Shown: in pieces, positions 3,007-14,178 of the stretch | How positions within the stretch are numbered: the stretch's first letter is position 1 | Layout: each line of letters begins with the position of its first letter | Assembly: GCA_947498025.1 (NCBI GenBank) | Contig: CANMJR010000007.1 | Location: 1-64,000 of the forward strand | Source of the DNA: Helicobacteraceae bacterium | GTDB taxonomy: Bacteria; Campylobacterota; Campylobacteria; Campylobacterales; Sulfurimonadaceae | Reading direction: 5' to 3' | DNA length: 64,000 bases | Program-made: the position numbers and the translations under genes | The notes under the pieces: generated by a model | The model's input: the letters and a program-made list of their open reading frames with translations, nothing else | Database searches by the model: none | What the model was told of the DNA's origin: nothing

Positions 3007-4053
3007 ATGAAAAAACAAAAATTTATCTACGCATTATCGGTAATTGCCGCACTATCGTTTTATGGTTGTGGTTCTGGAACTAGCACAAATACCAGTGCAG
3101 TAACAGATGCTTCTGCAGCCGTAGGAGCTGCAATTTCTACAGTTCAAGAATACGGTGTAATCGTTGAAAGAGGTGCTGTGTATGATTCTAATGTTACAGA
3201 TGCAAATGGCAGTGTTGCAGTACAGGTAAGTGACACAAATAATACATATATATTCGCGAATGAGCCTGTTTTCCCTGTTACAGCTGTAGGTGGCTGGATT
3301 GATGTTGACGGTGATGGGAATTTAACGGCTGCGGATGTTGCTCTTGACATCAATCTTACATCTTACAGTAACGTAATTACTCCTACTACTACATATATCG
3401 CTGATGAAAATGAAACAATTCGTGAGCAAAAATTATTTGCGCTGGCACAGGAAACAAATACAACAATTGAAGAGTTGCTAAAAGCCCCGTCTGAAGCAAC
3501 AAAGAGGTCAATTATCGTTCTTAATGCTGTTTATGAGAAACTGGTTGAAAGAGACAATGAACACTCGAATGCACCTATTGCAATCGAGGCGATTTTAAAA
3601 AGATTTACAGAAATTGAGAATAACAGCAATTTAGATGAGAATGCTACATCTTTAGAGATAGCGCTTGCTGTTGAAGAGCAAACAATGTTTAATCTTGTAG
3701 CACAAGGTTTATTACAAACATTAAACTTTGATGAAATAGAAGAAATTAAAGCTAAAAAGCCTTCAAAACAGAATAAAGATGACGAAACCTCCGATTCAGG
3801 GGCAGCCCATGGCAAACCTTCTGTTGCACCAACAACTGATGCAGTTTCATCTGACTTAGTAGCAATTGATGCTGTAACTTCCGCTTCAGTAACAACTGAG
3901 GATGAAATTTCCGTTTCTGAAACAATTGATGCTGTAACTTCCGCTTCAGAAACAACCGAGGATGAAATTTCCGTTTCTGAAATAATTGATGCTGTAACTT
4001 CCGCTTCAGAAACAACTGAGGATGAAGTTTCCAATCCGCTACCTGCAGTATAG
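3007..4053 (+). CDS. Secreted lipoprotein with C-terminal 20-residue repeats, downstream of a c-di-GMP riboswitch
   Basis: A 348-residue protein with a lipoprotein signal peptide (lipobox ...SFYGC, Cys ~21). After a Ser/Thr/Ala-rich linker comes a beta-rich region with a calcium-loop-like 'DVDGDGNLTAADV' (~98-110, EF-hand/dockerin style) and 'NVITPTTTYIAD', which resembles the module seen in the lipoproteins at 30 and 40 kb. A helical region (~140-250) follows. The C-terminus is an acidic, Thr/Ser-rich tail of ~2.8 copies of a 20-residue unit starting IDAVTSAS. AAAAGGA precedes the ATG. The riboswitch upstream suggests expression follows cellular c-di-GMP, as for biofilm or surface proteins. 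Function is not known. Confidence 0.8.
   Translation: MKKQKFIYALSVIAALSFYGCGSGTSTNTSAVTDASAAVGAAISTVQEYGVIVERGAVYDSNVTDANGSVAVQVSDTNNTYIFANEPVFPVTAVGGWIDVDGDGNLTAADVALDINLTSYSNVITPTTTYIADENETIREQKLFALAQETNTTIEELLKAPSEATKRSIIVLNAVYEKLVERDNEHSNAPIAIEAILKRFTEIENNSNLDENATSLEIALAVEEQTMFNLVAQGLLQTLNFDEIEEIKAKKPSKQNKDDETSDSGAAHGKPSVAPTTDAVSSDLVAIDAVTSASVTTEDEISVSETIDAVTSASETTEDEISVSEIIDAVTSASETTEDEVSNPLPAV
3865..4032 (+). repeat. 60-bp in-frame tandem repeat, ~2.8 copies
   Basis: Units begin at 3865, 3925 and 3985, each starting attgatgctgtaacttccgc. They differ by only a few bases (for example gta/gaa at one codon, acaact/acaacc). The third unit is cut short at ~4032. The near-identity suggests recent expansion or slippage; unit number may vary between strains. 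Confidence 0.9.
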
Positions 4054-4093: not shown

Positions 4094-4313
4094 ATAAACC
4101 CCCTATCAGACTGATTCTACATTCTAAGAAATTTTTTGGAGTATATTTCTCATCTATTATAATCACGGTAATTTAAGTTTAAATATTTAATAAGACTGTC
4201 TTCCAACTACTGTTTCATAAATATAATTTATACATAAGACTTAACACAAAATTAACACTTTATTATTATACTCCATTTATAAATATTAAAATATACTTAA
4301 GTGGAGCATGTAA

Positions 4314-6506
4314 ATGAGAAAAATTGTATATCTTTCAGTAATCTGTGCGCTAGCCATGAATGCTGCAGCATCAGATCTAGGAACGATACAGGTTGAGTCT
4401 TCTACAATTGATAGCAAATTTGACACAAAAAAGGCAGAGGTGTCAAGTGTTAGTGCAATCAGCGGTGAGAATGTGGATGAAGCACATGTTGAGAATATTC
4501 AGCAAATTCTGCAATCAATTCCCGGTGTTACAACAGAAGTTAAAAGCGGCGACACTCTAAAAATCCACCTAAGAGGTGTAGAAAATCAGATGTATATGGG
4601 AGAAAAACCCGGAGTAGCCATTGTAATTGACGGTGTGCCTGTATTTGAAAGAACAGGTGCCGTAAACATAGACCTAGACAACATAGAGAGCATCAAAGTT
4701 ATAAAAGGCGGTGCTTCTTATCTATTTGGCGATGATGCACTCTCCGGTGCCGTAATCATAACGACAAAAAGAGGCGCAAAGTATAACAACAATTTTGGTG
4801 CTGTTGAATTTGGAAGCTTTGGTTATCAAAAATTGTTAGCAAGAAGCGGATATGCAAATGAGAATTTAAACTTCCATCTACAAGCAAGCCAGAAGAAATC
4901 TGACGGATATTGGGAAGATTCAGCCTATGACGCAAAGTACTTAAACGGTAAACTGCAATACTACATCGATAATACATCAGATCTTACTTTTGGATTTGAA
5001 CATTCAAATAGAATTAAAGATACGCATGGAACTGTAGGCGGTGAAACTTCGGCAAGAACAAATCCTAAGTCTATTTATAGTGGAAATCAAGGTGACAGAG
5101 ATTATACAAGAGCGTATGATGTTGAACTCTTAAAACTATTTCTTACCTACTCTAAAGACTTTAGCAACAACTCAAACCTACTTGTAAATGGATATATTTA
5201 TACAGATAATACTCTATTTATGTCGGCACCGCTAACCAAAAACGGCAGCGGAGCAACAGACTCTTCTCTTGATGATAATGATTACACTTATGACAATGAT
5301 TATGCACAGATACAAAGAGGGGTAAAGAGTGAATATAGAACCTCATCTGAAAAATTCGCAACACTTTTAGGTCTAGACTTAAGAGCAAATAAGTATGAAA
5401 ACAAATCGATATACAGAGCAAATCAAGCACTCATAATATATGGTGGCCGTACTCCTTCTATAACTCCTGATTACTATTTGGCAGGCGACCCAAAAAGTGA
5501 CGACAAAACAGACGAAAATGTTTATGCCCTTTATGGAGAGTACAAGCAAGAGATAGTAAAAGATTTAAGTGCAACCGCAAACCTTAGATACGATTTAATC
5601 AAGCTTAACTATAATGATTACCTAAATAATAGTTTTAAAGAGGATTTCAAAGTCTATTCATACAGAGTAGGTACGAACTATAACATGAGCAGTGACGCTC
5701 AGGTTTTTGCAAACTTCTCAACCGGTTTTAGAGCGCCTACCGTTGCTCAGCTTTATGCGGGAAGTGCAAGCAGTTGGGGATATACTCAAAACAATCCTGA
5801 CTTAGAACCTGAAAAATCTTACAACTATGAGATAGGAGTAAGAACCAAAATAAATAAAATCGATTATGAAGCTGCAATATTTCAGATTGATAGAGAAAAT
5901 TTTATTATGAAAACATCAGGAAATTACGGTTCTGCAAATACTACAAATACTGACATGTGGGATAATGTCGGAGGAGCTAAACATAGAGGTCTAGAGCTCT
6001 CGGCTAAGGGCAAAGTTGTGGATGAGCTATCATTTGGCTTGGCATATACTTATCTTGACGCATATTATACAAACTATGATAACTTCGGTATTGATTTAGA
6101 CGGAAATACAAGAACTTCTAATTTGACATTTTTTGACGCAACAAAAAATGACATTCCTAGAACACCAAAACATCAGGCAAATCTTATTTTAGATTATCTG
6201 CCAATGAAAGCTCTCAAGTTAACAACAGAGATAAATGCAAAATCAGACTATTATGCGGATGATTTAAACCAAATAAAAATACCGGGTCATACAACATTAA
6301 ACCTGCTTGCAAATTACAGCCATAAAATAGACGGTTATGCGTATAGTTTTTTTGCCAGAATAGACAATGTTTTTGATAAATTTTACTATGGCACGGCAAG
6401 ATCAAGCGGTGACAGAAATGAAGACGGTGTGTTTAATGCAGAGGATTTATCAATTACCGTAAGTCCGGGTAGAGTATATACGGCTGGACTATCAGTTAAA
6501 TTTTAG
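4314..6506 (+). CDS. TonB-dependent outer-membrane receptor
   Basis: A 730-residue receptor. A signal peptide (~1-19) is followed by a plug domain with classic landmarks: 'IQQILQSIPGV', 'LRGVENQ', 'VIDGVPVFERTGAVNIDL', and 'ESIKVIKGGASYLFGDDALSG'. The 22-strand barrel follows and ends in the aromatic C-terminus SVKF. An aspartate-rich loop (SGDRNEDGVFNAEDL) near the end could bind a cation. Such receptors import metal chelates, haem or cobalamin using TonB energy. This one heads a same-strand series with exbB, exbD, iron-sulfur proteins and tonB, so its substrate is probably handled by that redox chain. The sequence does not let me name the ligand. Confidence 0.92.
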   Translation: MRKIVYLSVICALAMNAAASDLGTIQVESSTIDSKFDTKKAEVSSVSAISGENVDEAHVENIQQILQSIPGVTTEVKSGDTLKIHLRGVENQMYMGEKPGVAIVIDGVPVFERTGAVNIDLDNIESIKVIKGGASYLFGDDALSGAVIITTKRGAKYNNNFGAVEFGSFGYQKLLARSGYANENLNFHLQASQKKSDGYWEDSAYDAKYLNGKLQYYIDNTSDLTFGFEHSNRIKDTHGTVGGETSARTNPKSIYSGNQGDRDYTRAYDVELLKLFLTYSKDFSNNSNLLVNGYIYTDNTLFMSAPLTKNGSGATDSSLDDNDYTYDNDYAQIQRGVKSEYRTSSEKFATLLGLDLRANKYENKSIYRANQALIIYGGRTPSITPDYYLAGDPKSDDKTDENVYALYGEYKQEIVKDLSATANLRYDLIKLNYNDYLNNSFKEDFKVYSYRVGTNYNMSSDAQVFANFSTGFRAPTVAQLYAGSASSWGYTQNNPDLEPEKSYNYEIGVRTKINKIDYEAAIFQIDRENFIMKTSGNYGSANTTNTDMWDNVGGAKHRGLELSAKGKVVDELSFGLAYTYLDAYYTNYDNFGIDLDGNTRTSNLTFFDATKNDIPRTPKHQANLILDYLPMKALKLTTEINAKSDYYADDLNQIKIPGHTTLNLLANYSHKIDGYAYSFFARIDNVFDKFYYGTARSSGDRNEDGVFNAEDLSITVSPGRVYTAGLSVKF

Positions 6507-6515
6507 GACAGATAT

Positions 6516-6959
6516 ATGAACATAGAACTAATAAAAGATATTGTTGATTATGGAATTATCGGACTTTTGGGAGTTATGAGTTTTATTGCTTTTTGGTTTT
6601 GGATTGAGAGACTTCTCTTTTACAAAGAGATAGATGTAAAAAATTTTGAGACAAAAGAGGAGCTTGAAATTGTTCTTACCAATAACATTAACATAATTGC
6701 AACATTTGGTTCTAATGCACCTTATATAGGTCTTCTTGGAACAGTATTTGGAATAATTATCACTTTTTATGCGATGGGTCAAAGCAACTCTTTAGATGCC
6801 AAAATGATTATGACATCCTTGGCTCTTGCACTCAAAGCAACGGCCATGGGTCTTTTAGTAGCCATACCGGCAACTGTATTTTATAACCACTTGGCTAGAA
6901 GAATTGAGGTTGTTCTGGCCCTTTGGGATATCTATCAAAAGAAAAAACATGCAAATTAA
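6516..6959 (+). CDS. exbB: ExbB/TolQ-family proton channel subunit
   Basis: A 147-residue inner-membrane protein of the short ExbB type common in Campylobacterota. Three hydrophobic segments are visible (~13-33, ~65-88, ~100-125). The family core is present: 'SNAPYIGLLGTVFGIIITFYAMG' region and 'LALKATAMGLLVAIPATVFYNHL'. ExbB forms the pentameric proton channel that, with ExbD, energises TonB. It starts 9 bp after the receptor gene and its end overlaps exbD by 11 bp, indicating one operon and a system dedicated to this receptor. Confidence 0.93.
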   Translation: MNIELIKDIVDYGIIGLLGVMSFIAFWFWIERLLFYKEIDVKNFETKEELEIVLTNNINIIATFGSNAPYIGLLGTVFGIIITFYAMGQSNSLDAKMIMTSLALALKATAMGLLVAIPATVFYNHLARRIEVVLALWDIYQKKKHAN

Positions 6960-7329
6960 AAAGTTTGATTCTATAAATGTAGTACCTTTTATAGACATTA
7001 TGCTTGTGCTTCTAGTAATCGTTCTAACGACTGCAACTTTTGTGGCAAATGGAGTAATTCCTGTTGATCTTCCCGAGTCCAAAGTAGCAGCCAAAAATGA
7101 TAATAAAGAAAATCTAACTATCACTATCAAAGAAAACGGTGAAATTTTATTTGACAAAACAGTTGTTGTTATAAAAGATATTGAAAATGAATTATGCAAA
7201 TACAAAACGGATATCCCTATTCATATAAATTGTGACAAAAATGCGAAGTTTGATTATTTCGTTGTTCTCATAGATATCTTAAAACAAAAAAACTTTACAA
7301 ACCTTGGAATAATCACAAAAAAAGATTAG
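6949..7329 (+). CDS. exbD: ExbD/TolR-family protein
   Basis: A 126-residue protein with a single N-terminal membrane segment containing the key aspartate in 'VVPFIDIMLVLLVIVLTTA', then a small periplasmic domain (~45-126) with the ExbD fold pattern (ITIKENGEILFD...). ExbD docks TonB and gates the proton channel. The start MQIKKFD is chosen because it places the conserved N-terminus before the membrane helix; a longer frame from 6904 would add residues that lie inside exbB. Overlaps exbB by 11 bp. The sequence 'KTDIPIHINCDKNAKFDYFVVLIDIL' region is typical of the C-terminal half. Confidence 0.92.
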   Translation: MQIKKFDSINVVPFIDIMLVLLVIVLTTATFVANGVIPVDLPESKVAAKNDNKENLTITIKENGEILFDKTVVVIKDIENELCKYKTDIPIHINCDKNAKFDYFVVLIDILKQKNFTNLGIITKKD

Positions 7330-7346
7330 TCAAAGAGAGGCTATTT

Positions 7347-8018
7347 ATGGAATCTACAGCTTTTTTATCAATTTTCATAATAGGTCTCTCTTACGGAGCA
7401 ACAGCATGTATGTTCTCATGCATGCCGTTTTTAACGCCTCTGCTTGTAAGTAATTCAAACAGCACAAAACAGGCATTGGGGATTATTTTGCCCTTTAGTC
7501 TAGGCAGAATATTGAGCTATACACTCTTGGCAATTGTTGCATATCTAAGCTCGTACTGGGTAAAACAAACGCTTAACGACAACTTTTTATTTGGATTTAT
7601 TCTTGGCATAAGCACTTTTGGCATGGGAGTGTTTTTACTCTACAAAAGCTTTAAGCCCATCTCTTCATGCGGACACACAACACCGTTAATAAAGAAACCT
7701 CAATTAAATAAATTTGGTTTTTTTGCTATCGGTGCAACAATGTCTATAAACCCATGCGCCCCGATAATGGCACTTTTGGCAGTAGCGGCAAATAGCAACA
7801 ATATTTACAACACTCTAGGATTAGGACTCTTTTTCGGACTGGGAGCCGTTATGTTTTCAATCCTAATTTACGGATTTATAGTATCAAAGGTTATTAAGGG
7901 ATTTATGATTCAGTTCTCCTCTTACAGACTTTTTATAGAACGAGCAGCGGCACTTTTGCTTATGATAGTAGGCATGCTTGTACTGAGTGGTACTTTAGTC
8001 CATGATGTTACGCATTAA
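7347..8018 (+). CDS. CcdA/DsbD-like (sulfite-exporter-superfamily) membrane protein
   Basis: A 223-residue protein with about six membrane segments. Two half-repeats each carry cysteine/proline motifs: 'ACMFSCMPFLTPLL' (~24-37) and 'SINPCAPIMALL' (~134-145), as in the DsbD_2/CcdA transmembrane family that passes reducing equivalents across the inner membrane. The family is often annotated 'sulfite exporter TauE/SafE' and occurs next to copper and cytochrome oxidase assembly genes. The extra cysteine in CMFSC differs from classical CcdA. Placed 17 bp after exbD and 18 bp before the polyferredoxin, it could keep a periplasmic site or metal reduced. That role is inference. Confidence 0.75.
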   Translation: MESTAFLSIFIIGLSYGATACMFSCMPFLTPLLVSNSNSTKQALGIILPFSLGRILSYTLLAIVAYLSSYWVKQTLNDNFLFGFILGISTFGMGVFLLYKSFKPISSCGHTTPLIKKPQLNKFGFFAIGATMSINPCAPIMALLAVAANSNNIYNTLGLGLFFGLGAVMFSILIYGFIVSKVIKGFMIQFSSYRLFIERAAALLLMIVGMLVLSGTLVHDVTH

Positions 8019-8036
8019 AATAGAAAAAGGACAAAA

Positions 8037-10403
8037 ATGGTAAATTTTATAAAACGAGATAAAAACGACATCTATGCAAAACCTATAATTGGATTTTTCT
8101 TTAAAAATCAAAATTTTTTACTCTCGTTAAAGATAGCTGTTTCGGCACTGTTTGTGTATGCTCTTTACTTTGGTTTTGCACACACGCTCAAAGAGAACAC
8201 ATTTACTACCGCTGTTTTTTGGGGAATTTTCTGGTCTTTGTTTATGGTTACAACTCTTCCTACATTCGGACGAATTTTTTGCGGTATCTGCCCTCACGGA
8301 TTTATGGGAAAATACATCACAAAATACGGACTTAAAAAAACCATGCCAAAATGGATGCAAAACAGATATATCGGCGTAATGCTGCTTGTGTTTGGCTGGT
8401 GGGGCGTTTACTATATGTTCCCTGGTCTCTTTAGAACTCCTCAGGGCACGGCAATTTTATTTACCGTTATGACGCTTATTGCTTTTGTAATTTACTTTCT
8501 CTACAAAGATATGAGCTACTGCAAATATATCTGTCCCATCGGAACATTTACAAGAGCCTACTCAAAACTCTCATTTACATGGCTTGGCACATATAAGAGT
8601 GCATGTGATGAGTGTAGAACTTTTGAGTGTGCCACCGCATGTCCGTACAATTTAAAACCTTTTACATTTGATAATAGAAACTCTATGACGGATTGCACGC
8701 TCTGCATGGATTGCAGCAGTGCATGTGAAGCCGTCAGTTTTAAATTTAAAAAACCCTCATTTTCTCTTTTTTCAAAACTTCAAGTTCTAAAAGTAGAGGT
8801 TTGGGCATTTATCCTTATCCTTGCTTCAATCTCAGTTAGCATGTCATTTCACCACGGCATAGGAAGAAGTAATGCTGCGGATATTATGATATGGTCAAAA
8901 ACAGCCGAGTTTTTAAAAAATTATATAGATTTTGGCTCTATTGATGCAGTTGGTCTTTTTGCATTTATATATGCCCTTATTTTTACTATCTCAGCCGCAC
9001 TTATAGGTATGTTTATAGCGGCTAAAATTCTCAAAAAAGATTTTAACACTACATTTTATGATTTGGGATACTCTTACGCACCTCTATTTATCTTAGGTTC
9101 TATCGCCCATTCGCTTGAGACTTTTTTCCTAAAAGGATATGAGCATATCGCAGAGGGATTTGCTTATGGATTTGGATTTACTTTAGATGTGGCACCTTTG
9201 GCGAACAGAAATGATAGCTGGTTGCATCTATTTGGCTTACTGAAATGGGTTGCAATCGTCTGGGCGCTTATCATTCTCTACAAAAGAGTGAAGCTTTTAA
9301 ATGTGCCTAAGCTAAGAAAAATAGTCGCTTTTCCTTTTGCGGCATCTTTGATTATTTTCTTTCTCAGTATTGATATCTACACAGGGTATATCTTCAAAAC
9401 TTACGGCAAAGCATCAAGTGGAAATCATGGAGTCGGTGAAAAACTTTTTCAGAGCGTTCCCGCAGAAGCTGCCACTATTGTTTTTAAAGAGCCTGCCGCC
9501 AAAGATAGTATATATTTTTCAGATACAAATCCATCAGCAGAGAAAAAAGCCTACAATGGGGAACACAGCCACGGCGGAGCGGGTGATAGGGTTGCCGTAA
9601 AAGAGCTATGGCCTGTTTTTGAAGATGCTATGGGTAAAAAAAATTGTCTCAGTGCAATAAGTGCGGAGCTTTATCTGCTTGATGCAAATCTAAGCACAAT
9701 GCAAGCAACAGCTTCAAAAAGTGCAGGATGCAAATCCGTAAGCTTTAAAATGCCCGACAACGGATACTACAACCTTTTTTATGTAGATAAAAAAATCCAA
9801 GACAACACATTGCATGTAAAAACCGCAAAATATGAGTTTATGAGATTTAACCACAGTAACGATGCCGTTTATAACAAAGAGAAAATGGCGGCACACACTA
9901 TTGCAGAAGCTCCTTTTGATATATTGAGAGTAAGGGAAGAGGATGAGACTTTTTACCACAATCTCTACTCCGGTGAAAATTTAAGGGTTCAAGCAGTGCT
10001 TAACACAAAACCTATTGAGGGTGCAACCATAACACTGAGCACAAAAACAGGATGGTCAAAGAGTCTAAAAACCGACAAAGAGGGAGTTGCAACTTTCGCA
10101 CTCATTGAAGACTATTTTCCAAAGTGGAATGAATTTAACAAGAGATATAAAAACGAATTTTTGCTCCATGCATCTTATGTAAAAGAGGAGAAAGGGAGCG
10201 TTAACGATGTCACATACGAAAAAATAAAATATGACGTAACTTACCCATCCTATTACCATCCAAACAGCGCACGGTACCGCTCTTATGCTTACGGATTATC
10301 GGCGGCTCTATTCACTATAATCGTAACCGGATTTGCCATCTACATGCATAGAGCCAGACGAAAAATCCCTTTTAAAGAGGTGTCCTTTCATGAAAAGGAT
10401 TAG
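8037..10403 (+). CDS. NapH/NosR-type polyferredoxin fused to a large periplasmic beta domain
   Basis: A 788-residue inner-membrane protein. Residues ~25-160 hold membrane helices with CGICP (82-86) and CKYICP (162-167) motifs typical of NapH/NosR/CcoG proteins. Two cytoplasmic 4Fe-4S sites follow: C190-x2-C193-x4-C198-x3-C202P and C220-x2-C223-x2-C226-x3-C230. More helices run to ~450. Residues ~460-750 are periplasmic with beta-sandwich character; 'LRVQAVLNTKPIEGATITLSTK' resembles DUF4198/NikM-like or carboxypeptidase-regulatory domains, some of which bind metals. A histidine cluster (GEHSHGG) lies near residue ~505. A last helix (~758-776) ends the protein. Electrons from the cytoplasm could thus reach a periplasmic metal site. 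It overlaps the next gene by 14 bp. Confidence 0.82.
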   Translation: MVNFIKRDKNDIYAKPIIGFFFKNQNFLLSLKIAVSALFVYALYFGFAHTLKENTFTTAVFWGIFWSLFMVTTLPTFGRIFCGICPHGFMGKYITKYGLKKTMPKWMQNRYIGVMLLVFGWWGVYYMFPGLFRTPQGTAILFTVMTLIAFVIYFLYKDMSYCKYICPIGTFTRAYSKLSFTWLGTYKSACDECRTFECATACPYNLKPFTFDNRNSMTDCTLCMDCSSACEAVSFKFKKPSFSLFSKLQVLKVEVWAFILILASISVSMSFHHGIGRSNAADIMIWSKTAEFLKNYIDFGSIDAVGLFAFIYALIFTISAALIGMFIAAKILKKDFNTTFYDLGYSYAPLFILGSIAHSLETFFLKGYEHIAEGFAYGFGFTLDVAPLANRNDSWLHLFGLLKWVAIVWALIILYKRVKLLNVPKLRKIVAFPFAASLIIFFLSIDIYTGYIFKTYGKASSGNHGVGEKLFQSVPAEAATIVFKEPAAKDSIYFSDTNPSAEKKAYNGEHSHGGAGDRVAVKELWPVFEDAMGKKNCLSAISAELYLLDANLSTMQATASKSAGCKSVSFKMPDNGYYNLFYVDKKIQDNTLHVKTAKYEFMRFNHSNDAVYNKEKMAAHTIAEAPFDILRVREEDETFYHNLYSGENLRVQAVLNTKPIEGATITLSTKTGWSKSLKTDKEGVATFALIEDYFPKWNEFNKRYKNEFLLHASYVKEEKGSVNDVTYEKIKYDVTYPSYYHPNSARYRSYAYGLSAALFTIIVTGFAIYMHRARRKIPFKEVSFHEKD

Positions 10404-11370
10404 AGATTTTATAAACAATGCCGATATCAGAAGATTTCGCTTTTGGCTGCAACTCCTCTTTTTTGTACTCTTTATTTACGGCGGTTATTTTGCCGTAAAT
10501 CTTGGAAATAGCATTCCTGTATTTTCCTGCGGATACGATAAAGCGGTTGGAGGCATGTGTTATTTCTTGCCGCTTCAGCATCAACTTGCCCGTCCTTTGG
10601 ATGTACTCTTGAGCGCGGCAAGCATTTCAGTTTTGATTGGCTTTGTTACTTTTTTGCTCTGGTTTATCGTTTTTAACAAAGCATGGTGCGGCTATGCATG
10701 TCCTCTTGGAACTATGCAGGACTGGATTACGGGTTTGCGAAAAAAGATGGGCATAAGATACAGCACCTACACACAGCCTCAATTTGATACGCTCAAAAAA
10801 ATAAAATATATTATGCTAGCCATAGTGATTTTAGCACCGATGGGTGTGGGCATGGGGCTTCTTGGTGGTGAGTGGAGAACCGCATTTTGTGAAATATGCC
10901 CCAGCAGGATGATAACACCTCTTTTTGTAGGAGATGTTTCGCAATGGAGTTTGGACTTTTCAACAAAAACAGCGATGATACTGACTACGCTGGGGCTGAT
11001 TTTTACGGGTCTGTTTCTTATCGGTTCTTTTTTTAAAAAGAGGTTTTTCTGCTTTTTCTGCCCGATGAGTGCCATGCACTACATATTTAGCGACGGGGCA
11101 CTTTTAAAACTGAAAAAAGACGGCGACAAATGTACAAAATGCGGTGACTGCTACAATGTCTGCGATATGCAGATAAAAGATATCGCCGATGATGTCAAAA
11201 GTACAAACATCCTAAGAGACGACTGCATCTTTTGCATGAAGTGTGTAGCCGCTTGTCCTGAGGATGACGCTCTGCATGTAGATATTTTAAACATGAAACT
11301 CTTTACATCGACAAAAGGCGGTTTTGCAAAAAGAATGGAGATGGATAGGTTGGAGAAAAAAGATGACTGA
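10390..11370 (+). CDS. NapH-like 4Fe-4S membrane protein
   Basis: A 326-residue relative of NapH/CcoG quinol- or metal-linked electron carriers. About four membrane helices carry 'WCGYACPLGTMQDW' and 'FFCFFCPMSAMHY' motifs, with 'FCEICPSRM' between them. The C-terminal part has two ferredoxin-like 4Fe-4S sites (CTKCGDCYNVC and CIFCMKCVAACP). The start MKRIRDF has AAAGAGGTG upstream and overlaps the previous gene by 14 bp; a longer frame from 10333 lies wholly inside that gene. Two polyferredoxins in tandem, followed directly by a double-cubane-type protein, imply a multi-cluster electron wire across or along the inner membrane. Confidence 0.85.
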   Translation: MKRIRDFINNADIRRFRFWLQLLFFVLFIYGGYFAVNLGNSIPVFSCGYDKAVGGMCYFLPLQHQLARPLDVLLSAASISVLIGFVTFLLWFIVFNKAWCGYACPLGTMQDWITGLRKKMGIRYSTYTQPQFDTLKKIKYIMLAIVILAPMGVGMGLLGGEWRTAFCEICPSRMITPLFVGDVSQWSLDFSTKTAMILTTLGLIFTGLFLIGSFFKKRFFCFFCPMSAMHYIFSDGALLKLKKDGDKCTKCGDCYNVCDMQIKDIADDVKSTNILRDDCIFCMKCVAACPEDDALHVDILNMKLFTSTKGGFAKRMEMDRLEKKDD

Positions 11371-12628
11371 ACATAAAATTGAAACGCCAAAAGAGAGACA
11401 AAACCGCCATAAAGCGATGGAAGCCGCTGCCGTTCTGGAAAAAATAAAACATGATTTCAAAGAACCGCCTAAAGCGATGGACTATTTTTACGATTTACAT
11501 GAGAGAGTGCATTGCAAACATGAGGCTCTTCATAGCGACAAAGCCAAAGTCGGAACCATGTGCATTCAAGTTCCTTCCGAGATAATCTATGCGCTTGACG
11601 CGGTTCCGCTTAGACTCTGCAACGGTTTTTATGCGGATGACGAGATAGGAAGCGATTTTCTCCCCTCAAAATCATGCCCTTTAGTAAAAGCAACTATCGG
11701 ACAATTCGCTTCAAACAACTTCTCAGATAAGCCTGATATCGTTATATCTCCTACTACATGTGATCAAAAGGCAAAGTCAGGTGCGATTATAGAAAACATG
11801 GGATTTGAAGTTTACGATATGGAGTTTCCGCGAACAAAAGAGAGCCATGAGAGCAGAGAGTACTGGAGACGAAGCGTCAGAAAATTTACAAAAGATCTCT
11901 CAGAAAATCTCAATACAAAACTCTCAAAGAAAAAACTCAAAGATGCCATTAAAAAAGTGGGATATGCCCAACATCTCTACCACAAATTAAATATATTGCG
12001 AAAAGATAACAATTCCCCCATCTTAGGCAAAGATATGTTTTTGGTAACCAATGCATTCTTTTTTGACAAAATAGATAATTGGATTGAAGCGGTGGAAGCC
12101 CTTGCAAATGAGTGTGAGCAGAGAGTTAAAGATGAAATAAGCGTAGCTTCAAAAAGAAGCCCCCGAATCGTCTATACGGGTTCGCCTCCGATATTTCCAA
12201 ATCTAAAAATCCCTCTTTTGATAGAACTCTCAGACGCTATTATAGTTGCAGACGAAACATGCTCGTCAAACAGAATGTTCAATGACATGGTAAGCGTGGA
12301 TGAGTGGTTTGTGAATGATATGGTTGATTCCATAGCAGACAGATATCTCAAAGGGTGTACATGCCCCATTTTTACCAAAAATGAGGATAGAAAAAGAAGA
12401 ATATTAGACCTTGTCAGAGACTATAATGCCGACGGTGTAATTTATCAGGCATTTGCCGGATGTCAAGTGTATGAGATGGAACAGAGATCCGTTTTGGAGG
12501 CGATGGAGAGAGCAGGAGTGCCGATACTCTATCTCGAGACAGACTACTCTCCAAGCCATTTGGGACAGCTTACAACGAGAATAGAAGCTTTTGTAGAGTC
12601 GCTTAAAAATAGGAAAAGGAGACAATAA
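11363..12628 (+). CDS. 2-hydroxyacyl-CoA dehydratase / double-cubane cluster protein (YjiM-like)
   Basis: A 421-residue cytoplasmic protein of the HgdB/BcrB/YjiM family. Conserved cysteines occur in 'GTMCIQVPSEIIYAL', 'PLRLCNGFYADDE', 'SKSCPLVKA', 'SPTTCDQK', 'ADETCSSNRMF', 'KGCTCPIF' and 'FAGCQVYEMEQ'. The single-subunit form paired with one activator matches double-cubane cluster proteins (DCCP), which hold an [8Fe-9S] cluster and reduce small molecules such as acetylene or azide when primed by ATP. True dehydratases usually have two subunits; none is seen here. The start MTEHKIE has GGAG upstream and overlaps the previous gene by 8 bp. Its stop overlaps the activator start (TAATG). Substrate unknown. 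Confidence 0.82.
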   Translation: MTEHKIETPKERQNRHKAMEAAAVLEKIKHDFKEPPKAMDYFYDLHERVHCKHEALHSDKAKVGTMCIQVPSEIIYALDAVPLRLCNGFYADDEIGSDFLPSKSCPLVKATIGQFASNNFSDKPDIVISPTTCDQKAKSGAIIENMGFEVYDMEFPRTKESHESREYWRRSVRKFTKDLSENLNTKLSKKKLKDAIKKVGYAQHLYHKLNILRKDNNSPILGKDMFLVTNAFFFDKIDNWIEAVEALANECEQRVKDEISVASKRSPRIVYTGSPPIFPNLKIPLLIELSDAIIVADETCSSNRMFNDMVSVDEWFVNDMVDSIADRYLKGCTCPIFTKNEDRKRRILDLVRDYNADGVIYQAFAGCQVYEMEQRSVLEAMERAGVPILYLETDYSPSHLGQLTTRIEAFVESLKNRKRRQ

Positions 12629-13434
12629 TGCACTATTTTGCAGGGATTGACATAGGATCAACGGCAATTAAAATTGCGATTGTAGATGAGAGTAAAAAAT
12701 TGGTTGGACATAAGATAAGTGCCAGCGGAAGCATGTTTTATAAATATGCTAAACAAGCCCTAAAAGAGATGTTAAACGAACTTGATATCGATGAGGACAG
12801 TTTGGTTTATACGGTAGCTACAGGATATGGAAGAAAACTTTTTAAAGAAGCGGATGAAAACATAAGCGAAATTACCGCAAATGCGATGGGTGCCTTAGCC
12901 GCTGCAGAGGGAAAATGCGATATCAGAACTATTATAAACATCGGCGGTCAGGATTCAAAAGCTATCTCTTTGGATGGCGAAGGCAATGTTGTCAACTTTG
13001 CCATGAATGACAGATGTGCGGCAGGAACGGGAAAATTTTTGGATGTTGTTGCTATGAATTTAGAGATTGAAATAGATGAACTAGGCGAATATCACTTTAA
13101 ATCTAAAGGTACACCGCTGGCAATCAACAGCACATGCGCGGTATTCGCCGAATCAGAAATTATAGGACTTTTGGGAAACAACAACAGTGTTGAGGATATC
13201 GTAGCAGGTGTTCACTACTCTATCGCAAAGAGAATTATTAAACTTGTAAAAAGAGTCGGAATAAAAGAGGGCATCTACTTTGACGGCGGACCTGCCCTCA
13301 ACAGCGGTTTGGTCAGTGCAATCGAGAATGAGTTGGGCAAGCGGATATTTATCCCTGAATTTCCGCAGATAACAACCTCATACGGTGCTGCAATATTGGC
13401 ACATGAATCCCATGGGCATGAAAGCAAAGCATAA
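12628..13434 (+). CDS. ATP-dependent activator (reductase) of the double-cubane/dehydratase protein
   Basis: A 268-residue protein of the BadF/BadG/BcrA/HgdC ATPase family (ASKHA fold). Visible are the phosphate-1 loop 'GIDIGSTAIKIAI' (7-19), 'NIGGQDSKAI' (104-113), 'FDGGPALNSGL', and the two cysteines that bind the [4Fe-4S] cluster at a dimer interface: C130 in 'NDRCAAGTG' and C170 in 'STCAVFAESE', at the same places as in HgdC. In the family, ATP hydrolysis drives transfer of one very low-potential electron to the partner, here the preceding gene. It is the last iron-sulfur gene before tonB, 69 bp downstream. Confidence 0.9.
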   Translation: MHYFAGIDIGSTAIKIAIVDESKKLVGHKISASGSMFYKYAKQALKEMLNELDIDEDSLVYTVATGYGRKLFKEADENISEITANAMGALAAAEGKCDIRTIINIGGQDSKAISLDGEGNVVNFAMNDRCAAGTGKFLDVVAMNLEIEIDELGEYHFKSKGTPLAINSTCAVFAESEIIGLLGNNNSVEDIVAGVHYSIAKRIIKLVKRVGIKEGIYFDGGPALNSGLVSAIENELGKRIFIPEFPQITTSYGAAILAHESHGHESKA

Positions 13435-13503
13435 TGAAAATCATAAAAAACTTAAAGTTTTTATCTTTACATAATATATATTTTTATAAAAAGTAGCAAA
13501 AAC

Positions 13504-14178
13504 ATGCACAGATATCTCTCTTCATCTATTATTAGTACTCTTTTTTATCTCTGTATCGGTGCATTGATTTTTTACTTTTTTTCAGTTCATAAGTGCAGTG
13601 CGGAGGATATTGAAATTGTCAAGATTGAAAGAGTATGTTTATCAACTTTTACTCAAAAAAGTGAACCGACAATAGAAAAAGAAAAAATAAAAGAAGCCAA
13701 ACCTGAACCCAAAGAGATAAAAGAGAAACCAAAACCTATTAAAAAAGAACCGATTGCAAAACCTACTCCGGACTTTGAACCCATTGCTGAGCCCACTCAA
13801 AAATCAACTGAGCACGAGACAAAAGAAATCGTAGCAGAACAACAAAATAGTGTTTCCCCAAGTACAAATAATATACCGGAAATTGATATGTCCGAGGTAA
13901 AAAGAGAGCTGTTTATCGCAAATTTAATTCAACGGATTAATAGCAATAAATCCTATCCCAACTCTGCCAGAAGAAGATCTATAGAGGGGAGCGTAGAAGT
14001 TGAATTTACCGTATTAGCTGATGGAAATGTAAAAAATATTGAGATTATTTCAGGTCAAAATATTTTTGCAGAATCAACTATAGAGGCGATAAAAAATAGC
14101 TTTCCCGTAAAAATAGATGATGGATTATTTGCTTTTCCAAAAAAGTTTAAAATAGATATTACATATATCTTAAAATAA
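13504..14178 (+). CDS. tonB: TonB energy-transducing protein
   Basis: A 224-residue protein with one N-terminal membrane anchor (~8-27), a Pro/Lys/Glu-rich periplasm-spanning linker (~55-105, many KPEPKE-type units) and a C-terminal TonB domain (~140-224) with 'YPNSARRRSIEGSVEVEFTV' and 'AIKNSFP'. TonB transmits the ExbBD proton-motive force to outer-membrane receptors. The gene closes the cluster opened by the receptor and exbBD, which supports a self-contained transport system. The 69-bp gap upstream contains an AT-rich palindrome (AAAAACTT-A-AAGTTTTT) and no clear promoter. Confidence 0.9.
   Translation: MHRYLSSSIISTLFYLCIGALIFYFFSVHKCSAEDIEIVKIERVCLSTFTQKSEPTIEKEKIKEAKPEPKEIKEKPKPIKKEPIAKPTPDFEPIAEPTQKSTEHETKEIVAEQQNSVSPSTNNIPEIDMSEVKRELFIANLIQRINSNKSYPNSARRRSIEGSVEVEFTVLADGNVKNIEIISGQNIFAESTIEAIKNSFPVKIDDGLFAFPKKFKIDITYILK

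Follow-up and report, generated by a model that had tools for sequence, protein, structure and literature searches.

A conserved operon joining a TonB receptor, membrane polyferredoxins and a double-cubane-cluster protein, and its probable role in copper acquisition

The operon and its predicted products

The window analysed here is the stretch of 64,000 nucleotides at positions 1 to 64,000 (forward strand) of contig CANMJR010000007.1, from the Helicobacteraceae bacterium of assembly GCA_947498025.1 (Sulfurimonadaceae). At 4314-14178 it carries an operon of nine genes, hereafter called the module, all on the + strand and in the order TonB receptor, ExbB, ExbD, DsbD_2, CcoG-like, NapH-like, double-cubane-cluster protein (DCCP), activase and TonB. 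Judging from genes, sequences and predicted fold, the module probably serves TonB-dependent copper acquisition, with low-potential electrons supplied by ATP-powered proteins of its own. The features are as follows.

4241-4272, + strand: operator/promoter, with the direct repeat TTAACA-N5-TTAACA at 4241-4257, followed after 9 bp by the -10 box TATACT at 4267-4272
4314-6506, + strand: TonB-dependent receptor (PF00593 TonB_dep_Rec, E 9e-49; PF07715 Plug), with a PqqU/YncD-like fold
6516-6959, + strand: ExbB (TIGR02805, 176 bits, over the cut-off)
6949-7329, + strand: ExbD (PF02472, E 1e-24); open reading frame listed from 6904, the ATG at 6949 giving an 11-bp overlap
7347-8018, + strand: DsbD_2-type membrane protein (PF13386, E 5e-18)
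8037-10403, + strand: CcoG-like polyferredoxin (Fer4_5; weak DUF4198 match), with membrane domain, periplasmic domain and C-terminal membrane helix
9438-9482, + strand: EKLFQSVPAEAATIV, the N-terminal flank of a NosL domain that the window CcoG-like protein otherwise lacks, from alignment with its relative L033
9495-10259, + strand: DUF4198/Zcp-fold periplasmic domain of the CcoG-like protein (residues 487-741), from structure comparison
10390-11370, + strand: NapH-like polyferredoxin (Fer4_10, Fer4_5); open reading frame listed from 10333
11363-12628, + strand: DCCP of the HgdB/YjiM superfamily (PF06050, E 1e-96); open reading frame listed from 11324
12628-13434, + strand: ATP-dependent activase of the BadF/HgdC type (TIGR00241, CoA_E_activ, E 5e-69)
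13504-14178, + strand: TonB (PF03544, TonB_C, E 8e-15)

An earlier note on this DNA had described nine same-strand genes in one cluster, and both their positions and their family assignments were borne out, the latter by profile matches. The overlaps it reported (11, 14, 8 and 1 bp) hold with internal ATG starts for ExbD (6949), the NapH-like protein (10390) and the DCCP (11363). The families it named were all present, but its title omitted the DsbD_2 gene (7347-8018), which is part of the conserved core.

DCCPs and their activators together act as ATP-dependent reductases at low potential, and the window pair has the fold and cysteines expected of a DCCP and its cognate ATPase activator. The DCCP aligned with the solved DCCPs 7yyl and 6eno (E 3e-65) with seven aligned cysteines, which are invariant or nearly so in 83 homologues, and it scored 346 bits against NF040772 (HGD-D/double_cubane), for which the curated cut-off is 350. 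The activase matched the activator 4eht (E 2e-61) and the DCCP activase 7yyl_E (E 5e-39), and its Cys130 and Cys170, which would hold the bridging [4Fe-4S] cluster, are invariant. The NapH-like protein has a CX9C-X6-H motif near its N-terminus and two 4Fe-4S ferredoxin motifs, 16 cysteines and His83 being invariant in 86 homologues. In the DsbD_2 protein, Cys21, Cys25, Cys108, Cys137 and the C-terminal His223 are invariant (73 sequences).

The AlphaFold model of the receptor (pLDDT 84) gave PqqU (9c4o) and YncD (6v81) as best Foldseek matches, at 20 % identity, a likeness by which the fold does not fix the ligand. The window receptor did not match TIGR01778 (TonB-copper, OprC/NosA) and instead matched siderophore, hemin and PqqU models; its invariant residues include H85, M95, Q334, K338, E340 and H620. 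With PqqU/YncD as the nearest solved receptors, the cargo could be a small organic molecule, which the DCCP would reduce in the cytoplasm while the polyferredoxins carry electrons of the quinol pool inward to the activase; in vitro, small molecules serve as substrates of the known DCCPs, and activases draw electrons from ferredoxins. However, the cluster is without an inner-membrane importer, the domains fused to the CcoG-like protein are metal-binding ones of the periplasm, and the regulon described below is one of copper genes, all of which makes an organic cargo very improbable.

Conservation of the module

A PF06050 protein was found in 30 of the 151 genomes of the window's family, with the same neighbouring genes in every family locus not cut short, bar one YjiM-type locus. 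In a phylum-wide search the DCCPs fell into two classes, YjiM-like (approximately 440-510 bits) and the window class (approximately 310-370 bits), which form separate clades with support 100/100. A scan of named genomes gave 71 loci, from Sulfurimonas, Sulfurovum, Sulfuricurvum, Arcobacteraceae, Hydrogenimonas, Sulfurospirillum, Methylococcales, Thiohalomonas and other Gammaproteobacteria, as well as Rhodocyclaceae, Bryobacterales and one Bacteroidetes. The module is thus present in Campylobacterota, Pseudomonadota, Acidobacteriota and Bacteroidota.

Scoring covered 65 different loci in which the DCCP gene is flanked by 4.5 kb or more on each side; many of these come from close relatives, so that the counts are not independent, whereas the phyla are. 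The NapH-like gene adjoined the DCCP gene in 65/65 loci and the CcoG-like gene lay within 3 kb of it in 65/65. An activase was adjacent in 60/65, the DsbD_2 gene was present in 62/65 and a TonB receptor in 61/65, and ExbB/ExbD/TonB genes occurred in about half. The recurrence of the core in all scorable loci, across several phyla, is far beyond chance. The view of the earlier note that the cluster is one unit therefore stands, on this synteny and on the single conserved promoter in front. That note had asked whether DCCP homologues lie mostly away from receptor and polyferredoxin genes, and in the clade of the window DCCP they do not; separation is found in the YjiM-type clade alone, where 0/7 loci had any module neighbour except the activase.

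The DCCP genes without an adjacent activase were those of loci L044, L048, L134, L145 and L146; the genomes of L044 and L048 hold a second, complete module. In genomes G259, G477, G242, G219, G264 and G375, all of one genus of Campylobacterota, the DCCP gene is degraded and has stop codons, a case of recurrent loss. Sulfuricurvum genomes also carry a sister unit without DCCP, consisting of receptor, DUF4198-like protein, NapH-like and DsbD_2 genes, which is divergent from the DCCP unit (L047, L050, L055) and preceded by a promoter site with two mismatches. Its DUF4198-like protein matches the periplasmic domain of the window protein (hhalign probability 97). From these units it seems that polyferredoxin, metal domain and receptor form the core and that the DCCP-activase pair is an added power source.

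Genes for a resistance-nodulation-division (RND) pump, some with TolC and membrane fusion protein (MFP) genes, recur in linkage with the module across different phyla (L034, L036, L038-L040, L042, L043, L053, L058, L095, L096, L160, L192) and perhaps export a chelator. A gammaproteobacterial module (L167, 13172-16283) adjoins ZnuA-like, Fur-family and ABC-ATPase genes. A neighbour of L037 taken for CobN proved to be DnaE.

The CcoG-like protein and its putative metal-binding domains

The CcoG-like protein has two 4Fe-4S ferredoxin motifs (C190/193/198/202 and C220/223/226/230), the cysteines of which are invariant in 48 homologues. In the AlphaFold model its membrane iron-sulfur part has pLDDT values of 30-60, and no claim on topology was built on it for that reason. 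The periplasmic residues 487-741 were mostly modelled at pLDDT 70-93. FixG_C, the periplasmic domain of CcoG, was not matched in the window protein, the C-terminal domain of which has the DUF4198/Zcp fold instead.

As modelled, this periplasmic domain has the metal-binding fold of Zcp and DUF4198 proteins (Foldseek E 9e-9), in line with the remark of the earlier note that DUF4198-like domains can bind metals. VIA-align gave Z 18.2 with Zcp, which has been solved with Cu, Zn or Co (copper-bound form 9mhm), and Z 15.7 with the Ni-binding DUF4198 protein 9gcb, both far higher than the scores of the remaining rows. H606 alone is invariant in the domain, and the metal-ligand histidines of Zcp (H29, H31 and H142) were compared at the level of the fold only.

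A NosL profile search hit the CcoG-like protein of genome G274, and the Pfam NosL domain was found between the membrane and DUF4198 parts in 9/9 long homologues tested (E 1e-12 to 5e-20). This long, NosL-bearing form makes up 16 of 47 distinct full-length homologues. In the close relative L033 the NosL domain (PF05573, E 1.6e-17) stands exactly where the window protein keeps EKLFQSVPAEAATIV; with this flank retained and the domain in L033, the window copy most likely descends from the NosL-bearing form.

Promoter and regulon

A palindrome and repeat search found TTAAC-N6-TTAAC (at most one mismatch) in 58 of 75 operon heads, against 4.0 expected in shuffles, and alignment of the operon heads gave the consensus TTAACA-N5-TTAACA-N9-TAtAaT. 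The window site lies at 4241-4257, and its 17-mer repeat was a perfect match in the search of the window's own genome. Two repeats one helical turn apart beside a -10 box correspond to the layout of PhoB/OmpR-type activators. The full promoter pattern (at most two mismatches) occurred approximately 278 times in 25 module genomes, against approximately 90 in the reversed control. The TTAACA repeat was not found in module operons outside Campylobacterota; in three gammaproteobacterial loci, where receptor and module diverge, an FNR-like TTGAT-N4-ATCAA lies between the two.

Copper genes recurred behind this promoter. Receptors with TIGR01778 (TonB-copper) as their best family (E 4e-47 to 4e-69) stand directly behind it in L188, L191, L202 and L234, and ccoNO-like genes follow immediately after one of these receptors. 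NosL-domain proteins were found behind it in L184, L187, L235, L236 and L242, and inside an operon in L196, PCuAC in L239 (PF04314, E 7e-36), and DsbD_2 proteins in L251 (by Pfam) and in L256 and L257 (by likeness). Other loci have ExbB-ExbD-TonB (L196, L248, L266), a response regulator with a histidine kinase (L241), a response regulator with TolC/MFP genes after it (L192) or a TonB receptor with PepSY_TM (L193) in this position. In the genome of the window itself, a second perfect repeat, whose -10 box matches weakly, is found approximately 60 bp upstream of a NosL-domain gene, which is followed by a MacB-type ABC transporter and is next to the nos operon. Among stand-alone NosL genes of six genomes, 5/14 have a promoter site upstream of their operon, where about 1 % or less would be expected from site density.

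Proteins of 363-461 amino acids with two NosL-domain stretches were seen behind the promoter (L196, L242) and beside a nos operon (L199). A two-gene pair of membrane proteins, with a cytochrome c domain at the C-terminus of the first, stands behind the promoter in several genera (L237, L245, L252, L263) and might be a copper-independent oxidase. Matches inside open reading frames or before unrelated genes (L186 aroB, L189 HDOD, L190 transposase-like, L258 MoxR-like) were set aside as chance.

Fur regulation was also considered, since the module could be a system for ferric siderophores, in which the chain reduces a Fe(III) chelate in the periplasm in the style of the FoxB-type PepSY_TM proteins and iron enters as Fe(II). 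The receptor family names are siderophore-like, PepSY_TM genes lie beside some modules (L132, L161, L193), the low potentials needed to reduce tight ferric chelates would account for the DCCP, and DUF4198/PepSY clusters are often linked to Fur (PMC8238504). However, E. coli-type Fur boxes upstream of approximately 80 TonB-dependent receptor genes were in no case clearly over shuffles, and no Fur box was found for the window module, the best scores of which fall inside the shuffle range. Across the whole genome the Fur pattern was barely more frequent than in the reversed control (65 against 48), and none of the places listed was at the module. With the operator common to copper genes and the NosL fusion in homologues of the CcoG-like protein also speaking against it, ferric-siderophore uptake is unlikely.

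Surroundings of the operon

An inverted repeat (GCCAAAT..ATTTGGC) is seen at the end of the gene upstream of the operon, and a tRNA-Ser gene on the opposite strand follows immediately downstream. A c-di-GMP-I riboswitch at 2861-2938 (57 bits) lies directly 5' of a repeat-rich putative lipoprotein gene (3007-4053), which adjoins the start of the operon; riboswitch and gene are apparently a separate transcription unit.

Copper as the probable metal

The metal of the module is very probably copper, a reading well supported by the promoter common to copper genes, the NosL fusion in relatives, a module within a nos operon and the lack of Fur boxes. The metal chelate that the earlier note had offered as cargo remains likely, with copper now added as the most likely metal. 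Copper is also favoured by the PepSY_TM genes beside some modules, since such genes usually accompany the copper receptor CrtA of other bacteria (PMC12914433, PMC13038864), by the Zcp/DUF4198 fold of the periplasmic domain and by the cupric reductase activity of CcoG (cited in PMC8267372). In the Bacteroidetes locus L179 the module lies between NosD (PF05048, E 6e-33) and NapG/NapH-, NosF-, NosL- and NosY-like genes, all on one strand; the NosL match is just under the cut-off, and all but NosD and the ABC ATPase were assigned by eye.

This locus also suits the view that the chain matures cuproenzymes, delivering or reducing copper or building the CuZ and CuB sites of NosZ and the cbb3 oxidase, with the receptor merely co-regulated. 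Relatives of CcoG and DsbD_2 act in cbb3 assembly, and the TonB-copper receptor directly upstream of ccoNO has the same promoter. Against it, a receptor accompanies nearly all scorable modules, as given above, and NosZ was found in only approximately 13 of the 29 module genomes of the family, none of them Sulfuricurvum-like; dedicated maturation is therefore quite unlikely. A strict link to NosZ, hinted at by L179 and the nos-adjacent sites, was likewise rejected, since NosZ was present in approximately 46 of 122 genomes without the module. With NosZ missing from many module genomes, the copper must also serve other enzymes, such as the cbb3 oxidase.

Several points weigh against copper acquisition as the function. 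The TonB-copper receptor matches behind the promoter score under the TIGR01778 cut-off, and the window receptor is PqqU/YncD-like and outside that family. MsrP stands behind one TTAACA promoter and would suit a copper-excess regulon too. Ni or Zn can be bound by DUF4198 proteins as well, and these are often linked to iron (PMC12537917, PMC8238504), and the NosL domain is not in the window CcoG-like protein, in which the sequence after the flank resumes past the domain. The activase is not adjacent in 5/65 modules. Finally, reduction of Cu(II) alone needs no very low potential, which leaves the DCCP unexplained unless the cargo is very stable.

Proposed mechanism

For copper acquisition we propose the following sequence, to which as a whole we give an even chance; activation by copper shortage, the cargo, the direction of the electrons and the reduced species are what we infer. 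Copper shortage would switch on the operon through an OmpR-family two-component system, and ExbB-ExbD-TonB would energise the receptor, which would bring a copper complex into the periplasm. The cytoplasmic activase would hydrolyse ATP and prime the DCCP, the electrons of which would pass through the two membrane polyferredoxins to the periplasmic DUF4198 domain (plus NosL in relatives). There the complex would be reduced, and the Cu(I) set free would go to NosL/PCuAC/SCO-type chaperones that serve NosZ and the cbb3 oxidase. A role of the DsbD_2 protein may be to hold periplasmic thiols reduced, and where an RND pump is linked, it may export the chelator once the copper has been removed.

One reason for low-potential electrons might be that copper in sulfidic water is bound in stable Cu(I)-thiolate or copper sulfide species. 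More tentatively, and at somewhat less than even chance, ATP-driven electron export would strip copper from complexes beyond the reach of quinol or NADH, such as the copper sulfide clusters and thiolate chelates of sulfidic, anoxic water. Module and regulon name concrete candidate genes for the supply of copper to the N2O reductase and the cbb3 oxidase in anoxic, sulfidic habitats. If true, the proposal would give a physiological role to the DCCP class, whose reactions have so far been seen mostly in vitro, and would put ATP-dependent low-potential chemistry in the service of metal uptake; it would also bear on how far copper limits the removal of N2O. ATP-driven electron export of the more tentative kind would be the first machinery of its sort to serve nutrient uptake.

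Comparison with known systems

Literature searches on double-cubane proteins with TonB, copper limitation with polyferredoxins and TTAAC direct repeats found no paper, and the impression of the earlier note that no described system has such a make-up held in the literature searched. The copper importer of Campylobacter jejuni is stated to be unknown (PMC8267372). The module is real and widespread, and can be classed with TonB-dependent copper uptake using periplasmic reduction, a copper assignment that is testable.

The DCCP-activase pair of Carboxydothermus and YjiM/YjiL share with the window pair the folds, the seven aligned cysteines and the ATP-dependent activase, but the YjiM-type proteins form a clade apart and have no membrane or receptor partners. 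CcoG, cited in passages of PMC8267372 and PMC13038864 as a cupric reductase acting on Cu(II), is like the window protein a membrane polyferredoxin with a periplasmic beta-domain and a link to copper reduction. It is, however, held to act towards the cytoplasm and is without DCCP, NapH-like or receptor partners, whereas the C-terminal domain of the window protein is DUF4198, with or without NosL. NapH/NosR-type proteins and flavinylated NapH-like systems also pass electrons through membrane iron-sulfur proteins to the periplasm (PMC8238504); unlike the flavinylated systems, the module has no domain binding flavin mononucleotide and is tied to a DCCP and a TonB receptor. Receptors of the OprC/NosA TonB-copper family stand behind the TTAACA promoter in these bacteria, although the window receptor falls outside that family.

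CrtA-CrpH of Bordetella, like the system proposed here, combines TonB-dependent uptake of chelated copper, a copper-regulated operon and a putative membrane reductase. The last is a PepSY_TM protein, usually encoded next to CrtA, for which copper reduction in the periplasm has been proposed (PMC12914433, PMC13038864); ExbBD/TonB, PCuAC and Sco genes are sometimes found alongside. The conserved residues of CrtA are Y130, W265, E337, Q356, H358 and R395. Its partner reductase is a heme protein, whereas the module has iron-sulfur polyferredoxins and an ATP-dependent DCCP.

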